From a virus, in the IMG/VR virus record IMGVR_UViG_3300027368_000102, positions 1 through 34,810 of that record: a stretch of 34,810 nucleotides of DNA; one strand, written 5' to 3'. Both the position numbers and the translations under genes were made by a program. Of the stretch, positions 8,751 to 34,733 are shown in pieces (position 1 is the stretch's first letter; each line of letters starts with the position of its first letter). Under the pieces are notes generated by a model. That model saw only the letters and a list, made by a program, of their open reading frames with translations, did not search any database and was not told where the DNA came from.

Positions 8751-8945
8751 CTACCTGTAGCAATCTTGGTCTTTCGTCATCGTGATTTCATACGTCACGA
8801 TCCGTCGGCCGCAATGCCGACATTCTTTACGTCTGCGGATACGACCATCACGAAGCGGTTCGGTGTTAGTGGTGTAGAAGTGCCGACATCCACATCGGGG
8901 GCAAGAGATGCCTCGTTCTTGATTATCATCTTTGGGCTCGCTCAT
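8751..8945 (-). CDS. NrdR-like zinc-ribbon protein
   Basis: 64 residues. Four Cys in two knuckles (CPRCGC and CRHCGR) with RIRRRKECRHCGRRIVTYE between and after match the zinc ribbon at the start of the NrdR repressor (CPFCG...IRRRRECxxCGxRFTTYE pattern). The ATP-cone that makes NrdR a repressor is missing, so this is a free-standing ribbon. The start codon overlaps the TerL stop as ATGA, so it is co-translated with the large terminase. Likely a nucleic-acid binding accessory of packaging or a small regulator; no closer function can be given. Confidence 0.75.
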   Translation of the reverse strand: MSEPKDDNQERGISCPRCGCRHFYTTNTEPLRDGRIRRRKECRHCGRRIVTYEITMTKDQDCYR

Positions 8946-11209
8946 CGGTTTCGTTTCCTTTGCATTTCAGCGAAACTGACGCGTCCAGACTTGGGGATAC
9001 CAACCGATTTGCTTCCCGAGAGTGCTACACCCTGCATCGAAGCTCCAACGCAGCAACCCACAATGCAATCGAACCAGTGGTTGTCACCTCGCTCCGGGCG
9101 CTGCTTCCACTCATCCACTGTTCGACCACGGCCTTCGGTGCGCACGCGGTACTCGGCACAGAGGTGCTCGGCCAAGAGGCGGTGGGTCTCGGGGCTTGTT
9201 CCAAAAAAGGACAAGCAACCTCGGCTCCCCATCGAAACAGCGATGCGAGCATGCATGAAGGTTTTCCAGTAGTTGGTGTCATACACCACGTGCCGAACGG
9301 CTCGTTTCCCATGGATATTGGGGATTCTCCAGTTGTGGCCAACTCGATCCCCCGGGCGACGTTTGTACTCGGAAAACGGCTGACTCGATGCCCCAACGAA
9401 CCTCCCGTGGCTTGGGATTACGATGCCAGCGTGTGCACTTTGCCTGCAAAACTGGTATACCACATCGGTCGAAGCACCCCAGTTGGCATCGATTAGGCAT
9501 CGCTCGATTCGCATCATGGCACCATCGTCACGTCGCCATTCCCGACCAATCAGATCTCCAGTTAGTCGCTCAAGACCCGCGTAGATACTCCCTTCGAGCC
9601 CCTCGGCTTTGGTTGCCGTCGCTAGGGTGCTCCTTGCATCCCGAAGTGTGAAATAGGGCCGTTTTTGATCCGGGTAGCTCCCATAGTCGATGAGGTATCC
9701 AGTGAAATCGCTCTCCCAGGCGACCACGGTATAGAACAGCAGCGTTGCCTGAACGTCGACGAACATCGTTAGATGGTTGGTGGAAATCGGAACCACCCGT
9801 CTGTCGATCCGGTTAAACTTCGCAGCAATCTGATCTGCTGTCAGTTCGTTGTCATTTGCTTCTTGTTCTGGAAGAGGTTCGTTTTGGTACTCGGCAAAGA
9901 AGGCTGCTTCGTCTTGAAGCTTGAGGTTCATTGCATGTTGGATCGCCGAGAGTTCATCATGGTTGTAACGCTCGGGCCAGGCGACCTTGGATCCAAGATC
10001 CATCGCGGCACGATTCGAACCGTAGAATTCTGTGGCTAACGATAGGTCGCCACGACTACGAAGGCTCTCTGCTCGAAGCTCGGCGTACTTCGTCCAAAGT
10101 TTTTCGTCGGTTGGGAACTCATAGACCATCCGTGTCCGTTCCCCATTCCATTCGGGGTGCTTGTCTCGCGATAGGATGTTGTCGGCCATATCCCCCGGGC
10201 GAATGACCGTGCAGGGCATGATCCCAGAGATTTTTTTACCTGGGCCCGAGAGCCCCAAGATAGCCCCAGCAAGGATACTCTCGCGCGTGGCACACTGGGA
10301 AAGGGATCTGGCTGATTCGTCCGTTTGTGGATCGTCGATGACCACAAGGGTTGGCCGAACGGTCCTGCCATCGGACCGTTTGTACTTCATACCGCGGATT
10401 CGACCGGTGATACCAGCGACTTTGATGATCGCTCCGCTTGCGATGCTTCCGGGCATCGTAGGGAGCACTATTTCTTTGGCGGTCCATCCGATGTGGGTTC
10501 GCTCCCCTTTGTAGAGCTGGCCATTGCAGCGATTGGCGATTCCATCGAGGGATTGGATTGGAAACACTACCTCGGGGTAATCCGCAAGGAGCAGCTCGTT
10601 TCCATCGAGTTCCATCTTGATCGATTCGAGCATATCGCAGGCATGGCCCTCGTCGCTACCAATGAGGCATACGAACTCACGATGGCCGTTAAGAACCGCC
10701 CAAATGCAAGCACATTCACAAATCGTAGTCTTGCCACTCCCCCGAGGCATTGCCATCGAGAAAAGCCCCCCTCGCAGAACCGCTTGCTCGATCCGGTTGA
10801 TGACCTTCAGGTGATCATCCGACCAAGCCAGATGGAACGTCAACGGAAAATAGCTCTCGCAGAAGTATCGAAAATTGACAGCAGCCTTGGCTTTTCGCGC
10901 GGGGTCTGCAATCTCCGGAAGCTCTCCGATGTCACGACCTGCCGTTGCGATAGCCACATTGCGCGCCCGAGCACGTTCCTTGAGCTTCTCGTATGGATCC
11001 CCGGAGGTCTCGGGCTCTGGCGCATGCCGAGTCTCGACTAGCCATGCTCCGTAGCGAAGAAGATCGACGTACCTTGCATCGCCGATGCGCATGCCAGCGC
11101 GAGTTCGGTGTCGATACAGTTGCCTCTCGCTAATGACCTCACCTAGGGGTGTGGAGTTTAGCATTCTGCAAAGTTCGCTAGGTCGAAGTTTTCTTGGATC
11201 ACTCACCAC
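8942..11209 (-). CDS. terL: Terminase large subunit with N-terminal DNA-binding region
   Basis: 755 residues. The ATPase has Walker A MPRGSGKTT (residues 154-162) and Walker B TLVVIDDPQTDE (about 287-298), followed by a nuclease half with the Asp in MFVDVQ and a later DANWG stretch. This drives DNA packaging into the prohead and cuts concatemers. It is longer than most; the extra N-terminal 60 residues (SELCRMLNSTPLGEVISERQLYRH and VDLLRYGAWLVE) look like a helix-turn-helix and resemble the small gene just upstream. The start is GTG (two consecutive GTGs at 11,209 and 11,206) with GGAGATGG upstream, and overlaps the preceding small gene by 11 bases. Confidence 0.93.
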   Translation of the reverse strand: MVSDPRKLRPSELCRMLNSTPLGEVISERQLYRHRTRAGMRIGDARYVDLLRYGAWLVETRHAPEPETSGDPYEKLKERARARNVAIATAGRDIGELPEIADPARKAKAAVNFRYFCESYFPLTFHLAWSDDHLKVINRIEQAVLRGGLFSMAMPRGSGKTTICECACIWAVLNGHREFVCLIGSDEGHACDMLESIKMELDGNELLLADYPEVVFPIQSLDGIANRCNGQLYKGERTHIGWTAKEIVLPTMPGSIASGAIIKVAGITGRIRGMKYKRSDGRTVRPTLVVIDDPQTDESARSLSQCATRESILAGAILGLSGPGKKISGIMPCTVIRPGDMADNILSRDKHPEWNGERTRMVYEFPTDEKLWTKYAELRAESLRSRGDLSLATEFYGSNRAAMDLGSKVAWPERYNHDELSAIQHAMNLKLQDEAAFFAEYQNEPLPEQEANDNELTADQIAAKFNRIDRRVVPISTNHLTMFVDVQATLLFYTVVAWESDFTGYLIDYGSYPDQKRPYFTLRDARSTLATATKAEGLEGSIYAGLERLTGDLIGREWRRDDGAMMRIERCLIDANWGASTDVVYQFCRQSAHAGIVIPSHGRFVGASSQPFSEYKRRPGDRVGHNWRIPNIHGKRAVRHVVYDTNYWKTFMHARIAVSMGSRGCLSFFGTSPETHRLLAEHLCAEYRVRTEGRGRTVDEWKQRPERGDNHWFDCIVGCCVGASMQGVALSGSKSVGIPKSGRVSFAEMQRKRNR

Positions 11210-11405
11210 GGCCCATCTCCTTTACCATCCATGCGATGTAGTGGACCAAGTTGATTGATCCATCTTGGTTTGTTGGAGCACCGCTTTCGATGTCCAGCAC
11301 AATGTTCTCCTCGGGGATCCGGATCTTGGCCGCTGCCGAGAGGAGTTTGGCAGCCTGCTCGGGGGTTAGTCGATTCGGATCGATCGGGTTTTTTCCGTCA
11401 CTCAT
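11199..11405 (-). CDS. Small terminase-like protein upstream of TerL
   Basis: 68 residues, MSDGKNPIDPNRLTPEQAAK, then a helical middle and the ending VHYIAWMVKEMGRGE. The open frame goes further upstream but GGGAGCC lies ahead of this ATG. The final helix resembles the VDLLRYGAWLVE region in the N-terminus of TerL, so the pair may share a DNA-recognition module. As the first late gene beside the large terminase it may be the small terminase subunit, though it is short for one. Its ATG overlaps the stop of a 1,513-codon antisense open frame (see findings). Confidence 0.65.
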   Translation of the reverse strand: MSDGKNPIDPNRLTPEQAAKLLSAAAKIRIPEENIVLDIESGAPTNQDGSINLVHYIAWMVKEMGRGE

Positions 11406-11680
11406 GCCAGGCTCCCTTCTTTGAGGATTGGCACCGTGGCCCACACGGGGCCCACCGGCGTGTTTTCTTGGCGCATGCGAGCCCTTGGCCAAGGCGATTT
11501 CGCATGCGTGTTGTTGCAAACCGTGGCGTTTGTTGGGGCACCGAAAAACATGCAAAAAGACTGAGGAAAACATGCTTTATCGGCTGGATTGATCCCCAGC
11601 CGCAGGGCTGAATGTGTCACACGCAAACGCGATGGCGAATGCAAACGAGAGACCAACCCAACCCAAACGGACAGACGCAG
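11406..11680. promoter_or_regulatory. Divergent control region between late genes and plus-strand island
   Basis: No gene is seen in this stretch, which separates the late operon (minus) from the amidoligase (plus). It contains nested palindromes: CGCATGCGA at 11,472-11,480 and its reverse complement TCGCATGCG at 11,500-11,508, enclosing CCTTGGCCAAGG at 11,483-11,494. A further dyad CAAAC-N6-GTTTG occurs at 11,517-11,532. A second near-identical copy of the latter is at 14,677-14,692 in another gene leader. Promoter boxes could not be assigned with confidence. Confidence 0.55.
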
Positions 11681-12538
11681 ATGAACGCTAACGAGATCGC
11701 CTTCGGAATCGAATTCGAGACCACCCTTCCAAATAGCGACACCACACCGATCGGACCCTACCACCACGGACACCAAGTACCTTGGTTGCCCACCGGATGG
11801 CGAGCAGAACGCGACGCGAGCATCAAACCAGAAACACCTAACCGCAAGGGATGCGAATTCGTAAGCCCCAAGCTCAAGGGATACGAAGGCCTCAAGCAGA
11901 TCGAAGACGCGATCGACAAGATCAACGAGCACGGAGCACGCGTAAACGCCACCTGCGGTTTGCACATAACGATCGAATGGAATGGGGATGCAGCCGCCTT
12001 GGCCAGATTGATTTCCCTGGTTGGCAACCACGAAAAAGCGATTTTCGCGAGCACCGGAACACGCCGGCGAGAACAAACGGTCTACACCAAACGGATCAAA
12101 CAATACGGGGACAAAGACGCCGCGAAGAACCGATGCGAAGCGGATCGCTACCACCTGCTGAACCTCACCCACCTGGCCGCGGGCAAGAACCGAATCGAAT
12201 TCCGGGCCTTCGCCGGAACGCTCAACAAGACCAAGGTGGTCGGATACCTGATGATGGTCCTGGGGTTGGCAGAGCTGGCGATGAACACCAAACGATGCGC
12301 CGATTGGGACTACGCCAAGAAAGACGGAACCAAGAGTTGCTGGGATCGACCCGGGGCCGGCCTGGGCGAGACAGAACTCAACCGCCTTTTCTACCGGCTC
12401 GGATGGACCAAGGGTTGGTACAAGGGTGACCTTCGAAACAAGATCTTCGGCGAGATCACCGGCGAGACCAACCGCGAATGGAAGACGATCAAGAACAAGC
12501 TCCTGGAGATGGCCAAGAAATACGACCAAGCGGCCTAA
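11681..12538 (+). CDS. Putative amidoligase (Amidoligase_2-like)
   Basis: About 285 residues from the ATG of MNANEIAFGIEFET; in-frame ATGs at 11,612 and 11,639 are possible but precede the conserved core. Family hallmarks: FGIEFETT (substrate-binding Glu residues), WRAERDASIK, GCEFVSPKLKGYEGL, ATCGLHITI, and late RIEFRAFAG. These belong to COOH-NH2 ligases related to glutamine synthetase, which join an amino group to a carboxylate using ATP; bacterial and phage members are predicted to modify peptides or proteins. The usual partner, an AIG2-like gamma-glutamyl cyclotransferase, is not visible nearby. The gene opens the plus-strand island and is followed by an intrinsic terminator, so it is probably a single-gene unit. 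Confidence 0.88.
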   Translation: MNANEIAFGIEFETTLPNSDTTPIGPYHHGHQVPWLPTGWRAERDASIKPETPNRKGCEFVSPKLKGYEGLKQIEDAIDKINEHGARVNATCGLHITIEWNGDAAALARLISLVGNHEKAIFASTGTRRREQTVYTKRIKQYGDKDAAKNRCEADRYHLLNLTHLAAGKNRIEFRAFAGTLNKTKVVGYLMMVLGLAELAMNTKRCADWDYAKKDGTKSCWDRPGAGLGETELNRLFYRLGWTKGWYKGDLRNKIFGEITGETNREWKTIKNKLLEMAKKYDQAA

Positions 12539-12549
12539 GGGCCTAGCGG

Positions 12550-12585
12550 GCAAGAACCTTGGGAAAAACCCCAAGGTTTTCTTGC
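12550..12585 (+). terminator. Intrinsic terminator after the amidoligase gene
   Basis: AACCTTGGG and CCCAAGGTT form a nine-bp stem around an A-rich loop, extended by GCAAGAA and TTCTTGC with a two-base bulge. The 3' arm runs into TTTTCTT. It starts 12 bases after the stop codon. Confidence 0.75.
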
Positions 12586-12760
12586 TGGGTTCGTCACGGG
12601 GCATCCTGACCGTGTAGGTCATACCTATAGGGGATCCAATCCACGCGAGGGGCTTGTCTCCGATTTGGTTGGCTTGCGGCTTGATGTTTCCCGGCTTGAT
12701 GTACTGATGTGTGATGACTTTTTGTTTCCGACATATTTCAAACCCCATGGAGAACAGACC

Positions 12761-13033
12761 ATGACGATCGATGAATTGATTGCACGCCTCGAAGACTACC
12801 GCGACGAGATCGGTGGCGAAGCTGAGGTCCGGTTGATGACGCAGCAGAACTGGCCCTTCGAGAACTCTGTCTATGGCTTGGTATCCGGAGCCGAGATCAA
12901 TGACTACGACGAAGACGATGAGGACGGTGAGGACAACGACGATGCGGCCGAAGATGCGGTCCTTTTCATCGTCGAAGGCCAGCAGCTTGGATACGGAACC
13001 AAGCGCGCCTGGGATGTGGCCCGAAACAATTAA
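12761..13033 (+). CDS. Small acidic protein, unknown function
   Basis: 90 residues from MTIDELIARLEDYRDEIGGE; the frame is open upstream to 12,665, but GGAGAA about ten bases ahead supports this ATG. The N-terminal 45 residues look like a folded domain (helix then a strand with AEVRLMTQQNWPFENSVYGL), followed by a run of Asp/Glu (about residues 50-67) and a closing strand VLFIVEGQQLGYG with a short helix. The layout (DELIAxLE..........V........Y) resembles small phage and planctomycete proteins without a name. The leader contains two copies of CGGCTTGATGT (12,677 and 12,692), also found before the gene at 14,822. Confidence 0.75.
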   Translation: MTIDELIARLEDYRDEIGGEAEVRLMTQQNWPFENSVYGLVSGAEINDYDEDDEDGEDNDDAAEDAVLFIVEGQQLGYGTKRAWDVARNN

Positions 13034-13177
13034 CTTGCAAGGATTTCCACATGTTTCTGGAAGTCTCCAGATTACTGGCAGATTATCGCATAATCGAGTT
13101 GCATGTCTTTTGAGAACATGGCTCTTATATGAATACGCCAAACGAAGCACCACCCTTTCCAAGACGGAGAAACAAAA

Positions 13178-13504
13178 ATGGCCAACGAAAAGATTGACGT
13201 AACGGACCTCGACCTGGTGATCACCAAGATCGAAAAGCGAACTTCCAGCGGGGGAGCTTGGGTACGAGGCAAGATCAACAACGCGGTTCGGTTCGAAGCT
13301 CTGGTCTTCGCCGAACACGCAGAGAGCGAAGACTACGAACTCGGACGCACCAAGATTTCGAAGCTCTGGATTCAAGACATCCAAACCAAGAAGACCCTTT
13401 TCAACTTCGACCGCGGGTTGGATGTACCTGCCACGACCACCGAGATTCAGGTGGTGGTCGACTTCCTCGGATGCGGGTTGGCCGACCTGGTCTGGGGATC
13501 CTAA
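13178..13504 (+). CDS. Small conserved-type protein, unknown function
   Basis: 108 residues, beginning MANEKIDVTDLDLVI, with GGAGAAAC ahead of the ATG. The sequence alternates short strands (AWVRGKINNAVRFEALVFAEHA) with charged loops, ends VDFLGCGLADLVWG, and shows no membrane or catalytic motif. It looks like a small beta-rich fold. Its 140-base leader contains TTTCCACAT and ACGCCAAACGAA, repeated in the leader of the gene at 14,822. The stop is followed by an inverted repeat ATCCCGA...TCGGGAT (13,511-13,529). Confidence 0.7.
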   Translation: MANEKIDVTDLDLVITKIEKRTSSGGAWVRGKINNAVRFEALVFAEHAESEDYELGRTKISKLWIQDIQTKKTLFNFDRGLDVPATTTEIQVVVDFLGCGLADLVWGS

Positions 13505-13597
13505 GCCGAAATCCCGACACGATCGGGATCGTCGCTCGGTAGTGCGAGTGGCCTGACGATGGCAGCTAACCACGGTTCCAATACGGGAGAGAGACGA

Positions 13598-14143
13598 ATG
13601 AAGAAGGCAGAGGTCAGGATCGGTGGCAAGTACTATGCGAACGTCACCGGCAAGAAGGTCGAGATTCAGATAGATAGCGAGAAACCCAGCGGTGGTTGGA
13701 ACGCCACCAACCTGGCGACCGGCAAGAAGATCCTCGTCAAAAGTGCCCAGCGATTGCAGGGCGAGGTCGGCAAGAGCAAATCGACCGCGCAAACGCAAAG
13801 CGAATCGCCGGTAGAACAACCCGCCGATGCGAACCCGGATGTCGTTCCAATCAAACCCAAGCGGGTCGCCAAGAAGACCGAGGGCCAAGAACCCAAACGC
13901 CTGAGTGCTTTGGCTGCCGCCCACAAGGTTCTGTGCGAAGCGACCGAACCCCTCAACGTTCAGCAGATGATCGAAGCGATGACCAGCAAGGGGTATTGGA
14001 CAAGCCCCGGTGGGAAAACCCCGCACGCAACTCTCTACAGCGCGATCCTCCGAGAGTTGGCCAAGGGGGAGGCTTCGCGATTCGTAAAGACCGATCGGGG
14101 CCGGTTTGTAGCCGCTAGCGCGACTGCCGAGGTGGCCCAATGA
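13598..14143 (+). CDS. HARE-HTH domain protein
   Basis: About 181 residues from MKKAEVRIGGKYYANVTGKK; an ATG at 13,559 is in frame, but GGGAGAGAG ahead of 13,598 favours the shorter form. Residues 1-50 form a small beta-barrel-like part (VRIGGKYYANVTGKKVEIQI). Then a low-complexity Gln/Pro/Lys linker. The C-terminal part LSALAAAHKVLCEATEPLNV, QQMIEAMTSKGYW, TPHATLYSAILREL and FVKTDRGRFVA is the HARE-HTH winged helix, which links DNA or chromatin-like substrates in phage, restriction and RNA-polymerase-associated proteins. It is likely a DNA-binding protein. The next gene starts inside its stop codon (ATGA). Confidence 0.88.
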   Translation: MKKAEVRIGGKYYANVTGKKVEIQIDSEKPSGGWNATNLATGKKILVKSAQRLQGEVGKSKSTAQTQSESPVEQPADANPDVVPIKPKRVAKKTEGQEPKRLSALAAAHKVLCEATEPLNVQQMIEAMTSKGYWTSPGGKTPHATLYSAILRELAKGEASRFVKTDRGRFVAASATAEVAQ

Positions 14144-14334
14144 GCGACGATCCGAATTACCGAGTCGCAGATGCGATGCGAAAGGTTGCGCTGCGACTCG
14201 ATGAGGCTTTTGAGTCGGGCAAGGTGGCTTGCATCTACGCCAACCAACTTGCCGAGATCCTGCTCTCGATCGCCGAAGAGCTAGATCCACCGTTCCCCAA
14301 CCGCGACCAATCCACCAAGACCACGGAGCACTAG
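14140..14334 (+). CDS. Small helical protein, unknown function
   Basis: 64 residues: MSDDPNYRVADAMRKVALRL, then a helix with ANQLAEILLSIAEELDPPFPN. The start overlaps the HARE-HTH stop as ATGA, so both are probably made from one message and might work together. No recognisable domain; likely two or three helices. Confidence 0.6.
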   Translation: MSDDPNYRVADAMRKVALRLDEAFESGKVACIYANQLAEILLSIAEELDPPFPNRDQSTKTTEH

Positions 14335-14335
14335 C

Positions 14336-14575
14336 ATGCACATCGGACAGATCCATCTGGTGACCGATCTTACCGACGGCCAGCGGGTTTTCCCCGATGA
14401 CGACCATTCGTACCAAATCCAATCCGAAGACGACCCGTCGCTTGATACCACGGTTGAGTATGTCGAACGCCGAGGGGATCGATTGATCGCCCGAGGGCTT
14501 AACGGCCAGGACTATGCGGTCTCCGGTTTGGGCAGGTACGAGCTCAAGACGATTCGGAATTGGCTCCGGCGCTAA
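14336..14575 (+). CDS. Small protein, unknown function
   Basis: 79 residues starting MHIGQIHLVTDLTDGQRVFP, immediately after the preceding stop. Short strands and loops (VEYVERRGDRLIARGLNGQDY) end in a helix with the tail IRNWLRR. No known domain. The unit ends with a terminator 20 bases downstream, so the HARE-HTH gene, the small helical gene and this one form one transcription unit. Confidence 0.6.
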   Translation: MHIGQIHLVTDLTDGQRVFPDDDHSYQIQSEDDPSLDTTVEYVERRGDRLIARGLNGQDYAVSGLGRYELKTIRNWLRR

Positions 14576-14595
14576 CCCGGGTCGATTTGGCGACT

Positions 14596-14627
14596 GCGCC
14601 CCACGTTTGCGACGTGTGGGCGTTTTC
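14596..14627 (+). terminator. Intrinsic terminator after the HARE-HTH gene group
   Basis: CGCCCCACGT (14,597-14,606) pairs with ACGTGTGGGCG (14,612-14,622), allowing one bulge; the stem is followed by TTTT. Confidence 0.65.
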
Positions 14628-14676
14628 TCGTTGGATGGCCTAGTTACCCCAAGATCCAAAGCGACGCAACCGGTGC

Positions 14677-14821
14677 CAAACTGTGGCGTTTGTGGGGCTC
14701 GAAAACATTCTCCGAGAATCCAAAACATTACTTTCCACATCGGCTTGATGTTCTGCCCAACGCATGGGAAATGTGTTGTAACGCCAAACGAAAACCCCAA
14801 CGCAAACACGGAGAAACGACG
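14677..14821 (+). promoter_or_regulatory. Leader with duplicated control motifs
   Basis: CAAACTGTGGCGTTTGT (14,677-14,693) differs at one base from 11,517-11,533 and has dyad symmetry (CAAAC-N6-GTTTG). TTTCCACAT (14,732), CGGCTTGATGT (14,741) and ACGCCAAACGAA (14,781) are shared with leaders at 13,044, 12,677/12,692 and 13,135 respectively. Confidence 0.5.
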
Positions 14822-15115
14822 ATGAACGACACCGTCACACACCCAACGGTCGCAGCGATCCAGGAACAACTCAATCGCCTCGAGTGGATGATTCCGGACG
14901 CCAAGAAACGAATCGCAAAGGCCGCCGAACAAATGCTCTGGCGAGCCCAACGAGCAGTAGAGGATGCAACCGCAATGCTCAACGACCAACCCTGCTGCTT
15001 GAGTTGGACGGACTTCGCCGATGGCGACCTCCGCGAAGCCAAAGAAGCCAAGGCGGAACTCAACAAGCTCTACGAACAACAAAAGATGCTCCAGTACCTG
15101 ATCAAGAAACAATAA
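14822..15115 (+). CDS. Small coiled-coil protein, unknown function
   Basis: 97 residues from MNDTVTHPTVAAIQEQLNRL, with GGAGAAACGACG ahead of the ATG; an earlier in-frame ATG at 14,690 overlaps the leader repeats and is less likely. The protein is almost wholly helical (AAIQEQLNRLEWMIPDAKKR, AEQMLWRAQRAVEDATAMLN, then AKEAKAELNKLYEQQKMLQY), with a loop containing CC and a Trp. No known domain. It is followed 30 bases later by another helical gene. Confidence 0.7.
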   Translation: MNDTVTHPTVAAIQEQLNRLEWMIPDAKKRIAKAAEQMLWRAQRAVEDATAMLNDQPCCLSWTDFADGDLREAKEAKAELNKLYEQQKMLQYLIKKQ

Positions 15116-15145
15116 ACGCAACACCCCACCACAAGGAACCTTCCG

Positions 15146-15397
15146 ATGACCACCGCAGAAAAACAAGCCAACGAAAAAATCCTTCGCGACGCCTTCCGCA
15201 CGATGGACCCACACCAAGCCCAAGAGATCCGCGAGTCCTACTACAAAGCGATCGAAGGGATCCACGCCTTGGCCGAGCTCCTTGAGATCGCCGACGCACA
15301 GCAACCACAGACCGCCGGCCCGCTTCTTACCGAACACCTCCTGGCCTGCGAAGCGATCTACGCGATGAAGAAAAGCCTGCTCGGTAAGGTTCTCTAA
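15146..15397 (+). CDS. Small helical protein, unknown function
   Basis: 83 residues, MTTAEKQANEKILRDAFRTM, all-helical with charged faces (EIRESYYKAIEGIHALAELL and EHLLACEAIYAMKKSLLGKV). The start has AAGGAACC about ten bases ahead. It lies between two small genes with gaps of 30 and 18 bases, in what is probably one operon running from 14,822 to 15,967. No recognised family. Confidence 0.65.
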   Translation: MTTAEKQANEKILRDAFRTMDPHQAQEIRESYYKAIEGIHALAELLEIADAQQPQTAGPLLTEHLLACEAIYAMKKSLLGKVL

Positions 15398-15415
15398 ACG
15401 AAAGGAATCGCAATC

Positions 15416-15628
15416 ATGATCGATGCACCCAAAGTCGGAGATCGAATCCGACTGATCCACATGCCCGAGGATCCTGATCCGGTTCCTTCCGGATCGCTCG
15501 GCACCGTTCGCGCGATCCACCCGCACCATCGCTGGACGCAGGTTGAGGTCGATTGGGACAACGGTCGGCGATTGATGCTCACGTTGCCCGACGACCTCAT
15601 CGAGATCCTTAGTTCCGACGTAACCTAA
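15416..15628 (+). CDS. DUF4314-like protein
   Basis: 70 residues. KVGDRIRLIHMPEDPDPVPS, then GSLGTVRAI, QVEVDWDNGRRLMLTLP and DDLIEIL match the DUF4314 pattern: a small beta-barrel with a G-.-D-R-I-.-L, DPxP and V-.-W-D-N-G-R-.-L signature. The family is common in phages and mobile elements; the role is unknown. The ATG follows AAAGGAATCGCAATC. Confidence 0.85.
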   Translation: MIDAPKVGDRIRLIHMPEDPDPVPSGSLGTVRAIHPHHRWTQVEVDWDNGRRLMLTLPDDLIEILSSDVT

Positions 15629-15646
15629 TCCGAGAGAGGTACAACC

Positions 15647-15967
15647 ATGTCCACACGAGCAACGATTGCTTGTGCTAACGAGGATGGGACATTCCAGGCA
15701 ACGTACCTGCACTACGATGGTTATCCAGAATTCGCAGGCGTGATTCTTAATCAACGTTTCAACTCCATCGAAAAAGTTTCGGCACTCTTGGCAGGTGGTG
15801 ACCTTCGCAGCTTGACCTCCGAAGCCGGTGGTCCGGAGTACTTGGCTCGCGCTCGGCCCCCAAAGCATGTCTGCGACACCCGATCTCTGCTGGAGTTCGC
15901 ATGCAACTGCGATGCGAACTACCTGTATGTTTTCCAAAACCAAACGTGGCAGTGCCAGAAGCTGTAA
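15647..15967 (+). CDS. Phage-type small protein (MSTRATI family-like)
   Basis: 106 residues. MSTRATIACANEDGTFQATY, then LHYDGYPEFAGVIL, SALLAGGDLRSLTSE and CNCDANYLYVFQN. The start MSTRATIa...DG......hyDGYpe..G..L....s...v..Ll..GDlssL is a pattern shared by unnamed phage proteins from many hosts. The ending here is Cys-containing and Trp/Gln rich. The stop is only two bases from the convergent methyltransferase stop, so the transcripts overlap at their 3' ends. AGAGAGGTACAACC precedes the ATG. Confidence 0.8.
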   Translation: MSTRATIACANEDGTFQATYLHYDGYPEFAGVILNQRFNSIEKVSALLAGGDLRSLTSEAGGPEYLARARPPKHVCDTRSLLEFACNCDANYLYVFQNQTWQCQKL

Positions 15968-15969
15968 CG

Positions 15970-18168
15970 CTACTTAGCGTCTGCCGCACGCATCGGAATC
16001 GGCGAGGTTCCGGTTCTCTCGAGGACAGCCGGCTTGCCAGTGAACCGTTGGTACCGATCGACGATGACGTCGCTGTAAAGCGGGTCAAGCTCCATGAGGT
16101 ATGCATGCCGACCGGTCTGCTGGGCAGCGATCAAGGTCGATCCGCTACCACCAAACAGATCCAGCACGTTCTCTCCTGGTCGCGACGAGTACTGCATCGC
16201 GCGGACCGCCAGTTCGACAGGCTTCTCGGTCAGATGGACCATCGACTGCGGGTTGACTTTCTTGATCTGCCATAGATCCGTGGCGTTGTTGGGCCCTAGG
16301 TACACGTGCGCAGCCCCTTCAAGCCATCCATAAAAGCAATTATGGGTGACAAGCCCGTCGGCAATGTAGTGCTCGTGCGTATCGACCCCCAACGAGACAA
16401 CCTCACCAGAGTAGTCCTGGACATCAACGGCACGAATTGGAGTCCACTCCACATTTTGACCTCGCTTTGGAGTTGGAACCTCCATGCTGCCAGGGAGCAG
16501 ATTGCACGAACGTACTTGGATCGACTGCCGCGCTCCAAACTTTGCCCTGGTATCGTTTGATTCGACAAACGGATACTTTCGGTTTCGATTGAAGTGTGCA
16601 AGTGCGTTGCAAGCAGCCGCTTCTTGGGCATCTGCATCGAGTTGACCGTAAAAGTCCCTGATGTGATCACTTTGCCTGTGCGACGAGCTTCGGTTCGTGA
16701 CCCAGCATGTCTGCGGAATCCCAAACTGAATCGACACCAGCTGTTCTTGCATCCGAGCCTCCGCTGCCGAATCATGCAGCGAGAGAATCCAAGCCTCATC
16801 TCCAAGCTCATGAAGCAATCGTCCCTTTACACCAAAGCCCCAGGTGGTTCGCATCTTGGTCATACCAACGCGCCACCAAGTGCCACGACGCATAAGATAC
16901 ACGCACCATCGCGATGCGTAATCTTGGGTCATGCGTACCGTCCAGATGTGACCATCGGTCCCCCAGGATTGCTTCGACGGGGTTGCTACCCCATAGAGCT
17001 TTCCTCCGTAAGGCCGCCTGCCGACTTTGACTCGGTAGCCATCTCGCAAGCCCACGATTGCTGAGCTGTGCGAATAATAACTAACCACGCGATCGTCGTC
17101 ACGCATTTGGCCAAGCGTACTTGTTCCCCCTGCGGTTTGCACCATCGTATCTGGTGGTTGGCACCATTCATGGGCTCCCATGAAGTCCTTGCGGGTAAGC
17201 ACCGGGTGCATCTTGTCCCAGATGATTGCTTGGCTGAAATACAAACCATGCTTCTTGAGGAACGGTGGGTAGTTGCCGCAGTTGGCATACCCACCCCAGA
17301 TGTAGAAACCACGACCTGGGTCGAGCACCCGAGCGATGTTTCCAAACCATGCATCGAGCAATCGATCGAACTCTTGATCGCTCACAAAGTCGTTTGCCAA
17401 GGGACGATCCTTGGCTCGGAGTTTTTTGTGCGTCGCAGGATGCTTTGGCTTACCGGTCTCGTGGTCGACACCAAAGGAGGCTGCGTTCCCTTGGCCCCCT
17501 TTGAGCTTTTGTGAAGCGTTATCGTTCGAGAACGATGACAACCCCGCTGCGATCGCGTTGTTCGATCGCGGTTCCACCTTCACGTTGTAGGGCGGATCCG
17601 TGTTGACCAATTGGATGGTTTTACCACCCAAGAGTCGATCCAGGTCCTCGGGTTTCGATGAGTCCCCGCAGAGCAACCTATGATCACCCAAGATCCAAAG
17701 ATCTCCAGGTTGGGTTACCGCAGCATCCGGTGGTGCCGGCACATCATCGGGATCCGTGAGTCCTTCGTTTACGTCCCCGCTCATGAGCTTTAGAAGCTCA
17801 TCGGAATCAAAACCCAGGAGCGATAGATCAAATCCTGCTGTTTGAAGTTCACCAAGTTCGATCGGCAAGAGATCGAAATTCCAATCGGCCAATTCCGAAC
17901 TCTTGTTGTCGGCGATCCGGTAGGCCTTGATCTGCTCGGGGGTAAGATCCGTGGCCACATGGATCGGTACCTTCTCAAGGCCAAGCTTCTGCGCGGCTTT
18001 GAATCGGGTATGTCCGCAAATGATCACCCCATCGGTATCCACAACGATCGGTTGTCGGAACCCGAACTCCTTGATGCTACTTGCGACAGCATCGACCGCA
18101 TCATCGTTGATGCGGGGGTTGTTCGGGTATGGTTTGATTTCCGCTATCGGTCTAATGTCAATTTTCAT
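15970..18168 (-). CDS. ParB-like plus N4/N6 DNA methyltransferase, intein-interrupted
   Basis: 732-residue precursor. Residues 1-95 are a ParB/sulfiredoxin-fold domain (IKPYPNNPRIND, VIICGHTRFKAAQKLG). The methyltransferase follows: catalytic DPPY at 191-194, and the SAM-binding FGGSGS at 672-677 after KPVELAVRAM, i.e. the beta-class order. Between them, residues 336-610 are an intein, inserted exactly before the Cys of the conserved EWCFYGW...GAAH motif; after splicing the enzyme would be about 457 residues, normal for this family. The ParB-methylase combination is common in phages and modifies adenine or cytosine amino groups, likely protecting phage DNA. The gene is terminal in the early operon; AGGAAA lies ahead of the ATG. 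Confidence 0.93.
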   Translation of the reverse strand: MKIDIRPIAEIKPYPNNPRINDDAVDAVASSIKEFGFRQPIVVDTDGVIICGHTRFKAAQKLGLEKVPIHVATDLTPEQIKAYRIADNKSSELADWNFDLLPIELGELQTAGFDLSLLGFDSDELLKLMSGDVNEGLTDPDDVPAPPDAAVTQPGDLWILGDHRLLCGDSSKPEDLDRLLGGKTIQLVNTDPPYNVKVEPRSNNAIAAGLSSFSNDNASQKLKGGQGNAASFGVDHETGKPKHPATHKKLRAKDRPLANDFVSDQEFDRLLDAWFGNIARVLDPGRGFYIWGGYANCGNYPPFLKKHGLYFSQAIIWDKMHPVLTRKDFMGAHEWCQPPDTMVQTAGGTSTLGQMRDDDRVVSYYSHSSAIVGLRDGYRVKVGRRPYGGKLYGVATPSKQSWGTDGHIWTVRMTQDYASRWCVYLMRRGTWWRVGMTKMRTTWGFGVKGRLLHELGDEAWILSLHDSAAEARMQEQLVSIQFGIPQTCWVTNRSSSHRQSDHIRDFYGQLDADAQEAAACNALAHFNRNRKYPFVESNDTRAKFGARQSIQVRSCNLLPGSMEVPTPKRGQNVEWTPIRAVDVQDYSGEVVSLGVDTHEHYIADGLVTHNCFYGWLEGAAHVYLGPNNATDLWQIKKVNPQSMVHLTEKPVELAVRAMQYSSRPGENVLDLFGGSGSTLIAAQQTGRHAYLMELDPLYSDVIVDRYQRFTGKPAVLERTGTSPIPMRAADAK
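16339..17163 (-). mobile_element. Intein with GIY-YIG-like insert (275 residues)
   Basis: Host residues 336-610. Block A starts at Cys336 (CQPPDTMVQTAGG). Block B is at GTDGHIWTV (Thr404/His407). Blocks F and G are VVSLGVDTHEHYIADGLVTHN with final His609-Asn610, and the +1 residue is Cys611. The splice junctions join EW to CFYGW, restoring the methyltransferase consensus. No LAGLIDADG (DOD) endonuclease blocks are present; instead residues about 421-490 hold WCVYLMRRGTWWRVGMTK and EARMQEQLVSIQFGIP, which resemble the GIY-YIG nuclease core (Y...VG, then a catalytic Glu such as 470 or 475). The insert may therefore be a homing nuclease of uncommon type or a decayed one. Confidence 0.9.
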
Positions 18169-28255: not shown

Positions 28256-28672
28256 TCACTTGTTAGTGCGTTTGAGACCGAACCATGCGCTCCGTTGCTT
28301 ACTCCAGCTTGGATACATCGAGATTTCCTGAAGCTCCTTCAGCCCAATTTGATCCCGCATGACATTCTTGCCAACTTGGAGAAGAATATCCTCCTGGATC
28401 TCTGGCGCAAGCAACCGTAGATTCATGATCTGCGTGACACGAGCCCGCGTCACGTGCCCAAGTCGGGCAAGGTCAGCGAAATCTGTGACCACCCCTTTCT
28501 TGATAAGACCCTCGAAGTGAATCGCGAGTGCCATATAGCGAGCGATCCGAGGGATTCGTTCTAGAGGTTTCGTCTCTACCGAAGGGCCCTTTTTCTCAAC
28601 CATTTTCTTTCGGGCACCTCGGCCCTGAGGCTTGATTGAGAACTGAAAATCGACGCTTAATGTATCGTTCAT
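28256..28672 (-). CDS. HTH protein of the recombinase cassette
   Basis: 138 residues from MNDTLSVDFQFSIKPQGRG; a longer open frame upstream overlaps the recombinase gene and is rejected because this ATG overlaps the recombinase stop as ATGA. A helix-turn-helix is seen in VTDFADLARLGHVTRARVTQ followed by IMNLRLLAPEIQEDILL, with a basic N-terminal tail. The same neighbour occurs after planctomycete-type large serine recombinases and may act as a regulator or excision-directing factor; this is inference. Confidence 0.75.
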   Translation of the reverse strand: MNDTLSVDFQFSIKPQGRGARKKMVEKKGPSVETKPLERIPRIARYMALAIHFEGLIKKGVVTDFADLARLGHVTRARVTQIMNLRLLAPEIQEDILLQVGKNVMRDQIGLKELQEISMYPSWSKQRSAWFGLKRTNK

Positions 28673-30243
28673 GATGCGGCTTCCGCAAGTTCTGGTTTGT
28701 TGCTTCTGGCGATCGATTTGATTCCGTCCGGGTGAAACGTGATGGTAACTCGCCCATTGGCACCGTCGTAATCGACCTGCTTGACGATTAGCTTGACGAT
28801 CCGTGATTGTTCGCGAACCGTGAGCGATTCCCAAACCGGCTCAAAGCTATCGAGCGCTGTTGCTACATCGTTGGATGTCAGCGCCTGCGACTTTAGTAGG
28901 GTTAGTTTTGCGTTGACGATGGTGAGCCGATTCTCAGCAATCCGAAGATCCTCATGCCAATCTGCTAACTGTTTCAGCAGGTTCGCATCTGGGGAATTTG
29001 GTTTGATTTTGGGGGCAGCAATTCGGATGGCTTCGTTCCAATACTCGATTTCCTTGACGATCTCGTCCTGTTCGGCAACAAGGGCGTCGAGCTCGTGTTG
29101 TGTCTGTACTTCAGCTTGCTGCACGACCTCGTCGACAAGCCTCTCGTTTTCTACGACTTGGCGTATCTTTTCGACTACGAACTTCTCGATTTCCGCAGCT
29201 GGCACCGACCTCGACTCGCAGATCCGTCTGCCACGCTTCTGGGCCTTCATGCACACGTAGTATCGGTAGCGTTTGGCCCCACTCTTTGTCGTATGCGTCG
29301 GAGTCATCGAGCAATCGCAACAGGAGCATCGCAGAATTCCCTTGAGCAAGGCACCAAATTTGTTTCTTGCATCGACACCGCCAGTCCGACCGTTTCGTCG
29401 AAGCAAGGACTGGACCCTTTGCCACACATCGAGCGTGACGATCGGGTCGTGTTCACCTTCGTTGATTTCGTCTTTGTAGGCTAATTTGCCAATGTAGGTC
29501 ACGTTGGTAAGGAGTCGGAACAGCGTTGCTTTGGTGAACGGCGAACCGCCTCGAAGCATGCCTTTCTTGGTATTCCATGATTTGTTGTTCCAGCCACGGT
29601 TGTCGAGTTCAGCGATGGTCGCCATGATCGATTCGCGATCCAAGTATAGATCGTAGATCGCCCTGACTCTATTGGCCTCGACCTCGTTGATTCGAAGCTT
29701 GCCACCTTGCGGCTCGATGTCGTATCCAAGCAGAGGCATCCCCCCGGACCATTTTCCCTTTCGCCGAGCGGCAGCGATCTTGTCGCGGGTACGCTCTGAT
29801 ATGATCTCGCGTTCAAACTGGGCGAACGACAAGAGCACGTTGAGCATCAGCCGGCCCATCGAGTTGGTCGTGTTGAATTGCTGAGTTACGCTTACGAATG
29901 CAACTTGATGACGTTCGAAGACTTCGAGCATGCGAGCGAAGTCCATCAGCGAACGGCTCAGTCGATCGACTTTGTAGACGACCACGCAGTTGACCTTCCC
30001 AGCTTCGATGTCCGCCAGTAGTTGCTTTAGAGCCGGACGATCCATGTTGCCACCGGTGAACCCACCGTCGTCATAGTGATCGGGCAGGCAGTTCCAGCCC
30101 TCTTGCGTTTGGCTTTTGATGTAGGCTTCGGCGCATTCGCGTTGAGCATCGAGGGAATTGAACTCTTTGTCTAGCCCCTCGTCTGTGGACTTCCGGGTGT
30201 AGATCGCACAGTTCAGCCTGCGATTGTTGTTGAGTTTGTTCAT
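28669..30243 (-). CDS. Large serine recombinase (integrase)
   Basis: 524 residues. The N-terminal resolvase domain has the nucleophile Ser19 in YTRKSTDEG, VVYKVDRLSRSLMDFARMLE and MGRLMLNVLLSFAQFEREII. The recombinase domain follows with GYDIEPQGGKLRINEVEANR, then the zinc ribbon with CSCCDCSMTP and later Cys residues, then a long coiled coil at about 380-460. This class integrates phage DNA between short attP and attB sites in one direction without supercoiling. It is coupled by ATGA overlaps to the genes on both sides. Confidence 0.96.
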   Translation of the reverse strand: MNKLNNNRRLNCAIYTRKSTDEGLDKEFNSLDAQRECAEAYIKSQTQEGWNCLPDHYDDGGFTGGNMDRPALKQLLADIEAGKVNCVVVYKVDRLSRSLMDFARMLEVFERHQVAFVSVTQQFNTTNSMGRLMLNVLLSFAQFEREIISERTRDKIAAARRKGKWSGGMPLLGYDIEPQGGKLRINEVEANRVRAIYDLYLDRESIMATIAELDNRGWNNKSWNTKKGMLRGGSPFTKATLFRLLTNVTYIGKLAYKDEINEGEHDPIVTLDVWQRVQSLLRRNGRTGGVDARNKFGALLKGILRCSCCDCSMTPTHTTKSGAKRYRYYVCMKAQKRGRRICESRSVPAAEIEKFVVEKIRQVVENERLVDEVVQQAEVQTQHELDALVAEQDEIVKEIEYWNEAIRIAAPKIKPNSPDANLLKQLADWHEDLRIAENRLTIVNAKLTLLKSQALTSNDVATALDSFEPVWESLTVREQSRIVKLIVKQVDYDGANGRVTITFHPDGIKSIARSNKPELAEAAS

Positions 30244-34656: not shown

Positions 34657-34660
34657 CAAG

Positions 34661-34733
34661 CTCCCCCGGGTGGGCTCGAACCACCGACACGCGGATTAAC
34701 AGTCCGCTGCTCTGCCGACTGAGCTACAGGGGA
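34661..34733 (-). tRNA. tRNA-Asn (anticodon GTT)
   Basis: A complete 73-base cloverleaf. Acceptor stem TCCCCTG/CGGGGGA, D-arm GCTCAGTCGGCAGAGC, anticodon stem GCGGA/TCCGC with loop CTGTTAA (anticodon GTT), T-arm GGTGG-TTCGAGC-CCACC and discriminator G. The 3' CCA is not encoded. Transcribed leftwards with the terminator downstream. A broken second copy lies upstream at the right edge. Confidence 0.97.

Follow-up and report, generated by a model that had tools for sequence, protein, structure and literature searches.

A DNA methyltransferase gene in the virus record IMGVR_UViG_3300027368_000102 of IMG/VR (positions 1 to 34,810, the whole stretch analysed, hereafter the window) is interrupted in frame by an intein, and the question raised by this locus is what kind of nuclease the intein carries. 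Inteins host LAGLIDADG endonucleases and, less often, HNH endonucleases, and in these homing inteins the endonuclease is inserted in the Hint (splicing) domain, the same architecture as that of the window intein, with a presumed homing cycle. The original prediction was that the intein of this ParB-methyltransferase carries an insert of the GIY-YIG type. This was supported by a profile match above the controls, by the location of the insert motifs in a domain separate from the Hint fold, and by GIY-YIG proteins being the best neighbours in a second structural comparison, at low Z scores. We consider it probable that the insert has the GIY-YIG fold and is the endonuclease domain of a homing intein.

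The host gene is the minus-strand open reading frame (ORF) 15970-18168(-), encoding 732 residues as one precursor chain with matches to ParB_N (residues 6-77; PF02195, E=3.3e-9), to the N6_N4-methyltransferase family (PF01555, E=7.3e-24) and to the phrog_498 DNA methyltransferase (E=2.5e-121). The intein, at 16339-17163(-), corresponds to residues 336-610; its 275 residues, with a mass of 31 kDa, start with CQPPD, end with VTHN and lie in a single open frame with the methyltransferase exteins. Translation showed all of the splicing features that had been predicted, namely Cys1 (protein residue 336), the block B motif GTDGHIWTV holding T69 and H72, the C-terminus ..YIADGLVTHN with H274 and N275, and the +1 Cys; joining the exteins across the removed intein restores ..GAHEW-CFYGW... 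The motif DPPYN (residues 191-195) is in the N-extein and FGGSGST (residues 672-678) in the C-extein, with the intein between them. The two insert motifs quoted in the original prediction are also present, VYLMRRGTWWRVGMTK at intein residues 88-103 and EARMQEQLVSIQFGIP at residues 135-150, and an alignment of relatives showed that they contain most of the conserved insert positions. The locus is organised as follows:

17164..18168 (-): N-extein, residues 1-335, with ParB_N and the N-terminal half of the N6/N4 DNA methyltransferase (Pfam, phrog_498, motif position)
16924..17163 (-): N-terminal Hint half of the intein, residues 1-80, which hold Cys1 and the T69..H72 of block B (profile against solved inteins, AlphaFold model)
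16714..16908 (-): GIY-YIG-type nuclease core (predicted), intein residues 86-150, with Tyr89, Arg98-Val-Gly100, Arg115 and Glu140 (hhalign, predicted structure, conservation)
16525..16713 (-): linker with two helices (165-173 and 177-190), intein residues 151-213 (AlphaFold secondary structure)
16339..16524 (-): C-terminal Hint half of the intein, residues 214-275, ending in His274-Asn275 (PF14890 C-half, TIGR01443, profile against solved inteins)
15970..16338 (-): C-extein, residues 611-732 and stop, with the +1 Cys, FYGW.. and the C-terminal methyltransferase half (best stretch of PF01555 at 628-702, ungapped junction alignments)

Class 1 cis-splicing inteins have an N-terminal Cys or Ser, a block B TxxH, a C-terminal His-Asn and a +1 Cys, Ser or Thr. 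Judged by its Cys1, His-Asn and +1 Cys, its predicted Hint fold and the intact extein left on removal, the window element is a cis-splicing intein of the class 1 type, and protein splicing is predicted. The window protein matched PF14890 (Intein_splicing) at E=5.5e-4 with 20.2 bits, below the Pfam cut-off of 35.8, and the same model matched all 73 inteins of the family alignment at E<=1 (best 2e-15). TIGR01443 (intein_Cterm) scored 17.7 bits on the whole protein, for a cut-off of 15.6, and 14.1, below that cut-off, on the intein alone. In a profile of the 73 inteins, the parts that matched solved inteins were residues 1-80 and, approximately, 214-275. Furthermore, an AlphaFold model of the whole intein built from the 73-sequence alignment (predicted local distance difference test, pLDDT, 95.6; predicted template modelling score, pTM, 0.91) superposed on the Hint folds of hedgehog (1at0; Z 21.0, 1.8 A over 138 residues) and of the NpuDnaB intein (4o1r; Z 19.8, root-mean-square deviation 1.5 A over 133 residues). 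The family was defined by a hidden Markov model search that found the full-length intein in 105 ORFs (some contigs having been fetched twice; ORFs with only a partial match, for example L044, L081 and L094, lie outside this count), 85 of which were distinct; one of these, L062, was removed as a chance match that lacks Cys1. For brevity, nine of the 81 references (L028, L054, L069, L070, L088, L089, L091, L098 and L104) were dropped by hand from the 73-intein alignment, and the 71-row alignment of inserts does not include the mini-inteins L055 and L093.

In the predicted structures, intein residues 84-203 form a domain apart from the Hint fold, which when modelled alone reached a pLDDT of 94.7 and a pTM of 0.87. 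The elements of the insert in the whole-intein model are strands 86-93 and 96-103, helix 111-118, strand 123-130, helix 133-147 and two further helices, that is, a beta-beta-alpha-beta-alpha topology as in GIY-YIG. When the profile of 71 inserts was compared by hhalign with a profile of 28 GIY-YIG sequences, the match had a probability of 91.0% (E 1.1e-6, score 37.7); the controls scored at most 17.75 (60 column shuffles) and 13.8 (reversed profile). The insert profile matched the UvrC-type sequences alone at 78% and the others at 61%, the latter being 15 non-UvrC sequences that we term URI-type, as most of them are, a few being of other kinds. As a yardstick, the UvrC-type and URI-type profiles matched each other at 92.9%, close to the value for the insert against GIY-YIG. 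The partial sequence L140 was excluded from the GIY-YIG set, to which L151 and L152, obtained in the T5orf172 search and read as URI-type, had been added. No match was obtained between the insert profile and profiles of HNH (20 of 22 listed loci; 0.09%) or LAGLIDADG_3 (only eight sequences; 0.20%).

In a second structural look with VIA-align over the 420 chains from Foldseek, rows 1-13 of 18 were BH0048, PD-T4-3, Slx1 and UvrC, the last labelled so in the rows, with Z of 3.6-4.8 and the next row at 2.5; these values are all below 5, a range that may reflect only a common arrangement, and are weak when taken alone. BH0048, PD-T4-3 and Slx1 are GIY-YIG enzymes. Slx1 is treated as a member of the superfamily in the text available from PMC1564403. 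Among the matches listed by Foldseek for BFVD, the first three rows, one named as a methyltransferase, one as a helicase and one without a name, look from this naming like intein-bearing relatives, and of the 47 matches in rows 4-50 nine had GIY-YIG in their name and nine more the name of an intron, homing or other endonuclease (E 0.007 to 0.4), the remaining ones being unnamed, uncharacterised, BRO or KilA-N.

Several results, though, weigh against a GIY-YIG homing endonuclease, the low Z values just given being one of them. A Foldseek search of the insert against the PDB returned 57 matches at E<=10 and none at E<=0.001, and GIY-YIG was named in none of the best 50 of the 57. Among the Pfam families listed, the GIY-YIG model was matched by none of the 73 inteins; PF01541 gave no match in the window, and scans of proteins P0002-P0006 listed no GIY-YIG family. 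Searches of solved-structure sequences with phmmer and with profiles matched the Hint halves; for the insert the only hit was to glutathione S-transferase, with E of 0.3 and 0.38. Since the direct family searches did not yield GIY-YIG, it is the profile-profile comparison and the predicted fold that carry the assignment. A T5orf172 profile (seven sequences) matched the URI-type profile at 93.05%, the insert at only 0.7% and the UvrC-type profile at 0.26%; T5orf172/MUG113 had been considered as the subfamily of the insert, which this comparison does not support. The region that might contact DNA, linker residues 151-213, is short (about 60 residues) and has no recognised DNA-binding module. In it L188 and P198 are kept in at least 90% of the 73-intein alignment, and the linker had no family match in a Pfam scan of the window intein. 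Two further points on this side concern the active site. First, the tyrosine of the YIG motif is replaced by Arg98 in 82 of 82 inserts, and the His or Tyr of the first helix by Glu (in a few by Asp or Gln). Second, one of the 82, L104, has Phe in place of the presumed catalytic Tyr89, and perhaps its nuclease has been inactivated. Finally, among the matches listed no two nearly identical genes were seen of which one has the intein and the other lacks it; the closest intein-free allele has about 76% protein identity, which means that the intein was not caught in a recent gain or loss.

The absence of a significant PDB match by Foldseek alone and the low Z values could mean that the insert residues are part of the splicing domain, or of some unrelated fold, and that they resemble GIY-YIG by chance. 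We regard this as very improbable: the region is missing from mini-inteins at the same site, which still retain the splicing residues, it is predicted with high confidence as a separate domain, and its profile score exceeded all 60 shuffles as well as the scores against HNH and LAGLIDADG.

If the GIY-YIG assignment is accepted, the conservation of the predicted active site becomes the next matter, and it was counted over 82 distinct insert-bearing inteins (84 minus the two mini-inteins). Arg98, Gly100, Arg115, Trp125 and Glu140 are present in all 82, Tyr89 in 81 and Glu119 in 78, the other four having Asp or Gln. Tyr89, Arg98, Gly100, Arg115, Trp125 and Glu140 are invariant in the 71-row alignment, but the 71/71 figure for Tyr89 overstates its conservation, L104 having been left out, and the 82-sequence count is preferred. 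In the hhalign alignment Tyr89 corresponds to the GIY tyrosine, Gly100 to the YIG glycine and Glu140 to the catalytic glutamate. The tyrosine is described as the presumed general base (PMC4081073; PMC10287932) and the glutamate as a likely metal ligand (PMC10287932) in the available portions of these papers. The hairpin is followed by the first helix, which holds Arg115 with Glu119 at i+4, and these two residues were matched by position, not by profile alignment, to R84 and Y88 on the first helix of Hpy188I, a GIY-YIG enzyme in which, according to the accessible text of PMC2630997, the YIG Tyr is a Lys. Therefore, Arg98 alone does not exclude the insert from the GIY-YIG superfamily. No clear counterpart of the C-terminal metal-binding Asn was found by eye in the insert; in the portion available of PMC1564403 the Asn motif is given as missing from the Slx1 family.

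These substitutions raise the alternative that the insert keeps the GIY-YIG fold but is no longer catalytic, its only part in the intein being in folding, DNA binding or regulation. Such a loss would fit the replacement of the YIG Tyr by Arg and of the first-helix His/Tyr by Glu, an Asn counterpart not seen by eye, the Phe of L104 and recognition by the Pfam GIY-YIG model in none of the 73 members. However, Arg115 and Glu140 are kept in every one of the 82 inserts and Tyr89 in all but one, Hpy188I has Lys for the YIG Tyr, the Asn motif can be missing, as in Slx1, and the mini-inteins L055 and L093 do without the entire domain. In addition, ratios of nonsynonymous to synonymous substitution rates (dN/dS), with the window compared to four close relatives, were 0.04-0.09 for the insert, 0.02-0.05 for the insert core and 0.03-0.13 for Hint, usable dN/dS values being limited to 7 of 73 pairs by saturation at synonymous sites; by this computation the insert sequence is under purifying selection, and the low value for the core also speaks against lost catalysis. 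A non-catalytic insert is thus unlikely, though it is the most credible of the alternatives to a homing intein.

Turning to mobility, alleles lacking the intein were found in other phages. Two pattern scans each returned at least 120 intein-free loci, and 234 of the best 240 alignments of the joined exteins to intein-free alleles are ungapped through the junction (10 residues on each side). The invariance of HE[WP]C[FL]YGW in the intein-free alleles was built into the search patterns and is not counted as evidence. Moreover, L055 (149 residues) and L093 (144 residues) are mini-inteins at the same methyltransferase site that keep Cys1 and His-Asn and lack the whole insert, which indicates that the nuclease is a separable module.

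The most likely interpretation of the element is a homing intein, in which DNA cleavage, target site and homing are predictions. In such a cycle the Hint domain would excise residues 336-610 and ligate HEW to CFYGW, giving an intact ParB-methyltransferase, and the GIY-YIG domain would allow the freed intein to cleave methyltransferase genes that lack the intein, in phages that co-infect the cell or already reside in it. The cut would fall at the insertion codon or close to it, and repair of the cut allele would copy the intein in. The intein separates DPPYN from FGGSGST, so the unspliced methyltransferase is probably inactive, and it is plausible that splicing may gate methylation.

Instead of homing, the main role of an active GIY-YIG nuclease could be to keep out competing phages or to act with the methyltransferase in a restriction-like partnership; in its favour, the two enzymes, DNA methyltransferase and nuclease, would come from the one methyltransferase ORF. 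However, the same nuclease is found in inteins of UvrD helicases, with no methyltransferase in that ORF, so the pairing is not general, and the existence of intein-free and nuclease-free alleles suits a homing cycle. We judge this role improbable. A more elaborate form, in which a single gene would act as a restriction-modification-like pair, with splicing freeing the GIY-YIG nuclease from the methyltransferase, methylation shielding the resident phage genome, and splicing balancing cutting and protection against rivals, can be put forward only as a long shot.

The intein belongs to a broad family. By tblastn against the phage collection it matched 66 records, with full-length relatives down to 2e-18; the 28 full-length records comprise 15 from Streptococcus phages (about 40% identity), 12 from the Bacillus SPO1 group (33-35%) and Vibrio phage RYC (29%), and many Escherichia-phage records match intein residues 1-174. 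Profile-guided scans gave 49 genome loci and at least 53 viral loci. According to their flanking residues, 27 of the 73 aligned inteins are in methyltransferases at HE[WP]|C[FL]YGW or near variants, 40 are at helicase-like sites, for example GDxxQ|[SC]IY, and six are elsewhere, and Pfam found UvrD domains in all three helicase-site proteins scanned (L045, L099 and L012). The insert profile was found in 4 of 294 genomes of Planctomycetota (the phylum of the host of L073) and, for the phylum to which the host of L084 belongs, in 1 of 299, both samples including the centre genome already known to carry the insert, with at most 15 candidates scored per genome. All six insert places in the sampled genomes were in ORFs of 684-1107 residues, with no free-standing copy seen. 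The description of the intein as rare therefore holds for its sparse occurrence in genomes and not for its distribution, the family being spread across phages and bacterial phyla.

In the Hint tree, with 73 tips, and the insert tree, with 71, the methyltransferase inteins are set apart from the rest, 27 of 27 with support 0.853 and 25 of 25 with support 0.888, respectively. The same split in both trees means that Hint and insert seem to have travelled together. Inteins 93-100% identical to that of the window were present in seven IMG/VR contigs, and inteins 95-100% identical in three contigs of planctomycete metagenome-assembled genomes, from which the window phage probably infects Planctomycetota.

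Some family members show other arrangements. An extra segment of about 100 residues follows the GIY-YIG domain in 28 of the 73 inteins, at helicase sites (L057, L056, L065, L087, L097, L099 and others); it matched none of the LAGLIDADG, HNH, GIY-YIG and T5orf172 profiles and is perhaps a DNA-recognition module. Related inteins occur in other contexts in L038-L042, L086 and L046 (ELQD|CSAS, EAPD|CSPV, HIEA|CDNM), L086 having a UvrD/AAA-like N-terminus and the exteins of L038, L041 and L046 being assigned to no family. In L014 (Bacillus phage phiBsKO1-1, 2191-3370) a SPO1-type helicase intein is spread over several frames and the helicase gene is seemingly broken, by decay or by sequencing error. 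Moreover, N- and C-terminal Hint halves are in two ORFs of one locus (L067:2018-2482 and L067:2995-3912), the second fused to a spore-photoproduct-lyase-like domain, which makes the pair a candidate for a split intein whose host gene is fractured.

The window is from a virus record with a portal, a head protease, a large terminase, a primase, an exonuclease and an integrase related to DNA invertases. The integrase, at 28669-30243(-), is probably a large serine integrase and, together with a tRNA-Asn at 34660-34733(-) near the contig end, suggests a temperate phage. A second intein, suspected in the 755-residue terminase ORF 8942-11209(-) from a profile gap, was not found, GpA_nuclease being the only match there at E<=0.01. 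An open frame of 1513 codons at 11402-15943(-), opposite several plus-strand ORFs, is by eye probably not a gene.

Several known systems are close to the window intein or its insert. The intein of SPO1 gp34.33 (a UvrD-type helicase) and its CampHawk counterpart share with the window intein the length of 275 residues, 34.5% identity over the whole intein and the same insert motifs, and differ in the helicase host gene, the insertion after GDDDQ and the +1 Ser; the SPO1 record is annotated as intein only, and the nuclease type is not named in the available text of PMC3868849. The adenine methyltransferase inteins of Streptococcus suis phages (for example YS162) are in the homologous gene and site (HEP-CLYGW), with 40% identity and the same insert, but are 285 residues long and annotated as methylase only. 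Compared with UvrC (N-domain), Slx1, URI-type proteins, I-TevI and Hpy188I, the insert shares the fold topology, the profile match and the Tyr/Arg/Glu set; it differs from the GIY-YIG superfamily in having Arg for the YIG Tyr, Glu for the first-helix His/Tyr, a longer loop before the catalytic Arg and its location within an intein. LAGLIDADG and HNH homing inteins, in turn, have a different nuclease fold. The AceL NrdHF split class 3 intein has a putative GIY-YIG homing endonuclease gene between its halves (PMC7891396, in the text available), a likeness in the association of GIY-YIG with an intein, but there in a fractured gene and not as a domain within one intein. In 2006, GIY-YIG members were stated not to be found in inteins (PMC1564403), and the accessible portions of PMC3943268, PMC10448857 and PMC7765530 name no GIY-YIG inside an intein, the last listing GIY-YIG among homing endonuclease families and LAGLIDADG as the commonest in inteins. 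GIY-YIG domains are described for mobile introns, but we recognised no description of one inside an intein in the literature covered, mostly outside subscription papers, where one may exist.

If the interpretation as a GIY-YIG homing intein is correct, the nuclease classes that take part in the mobility of protein introns would be extended by this family, whose members include inteins of the well-studied phage SPO1 and of UvrD helicases in bacteria. The family would also provide a natural Hint-GIY-YIG chimera for work on mechanism and a simple test of homing in SPO1 and B. subtilis, and the Arg in place of the YIG Tyr would extend the few known variants of GIY-YIG chemistry.

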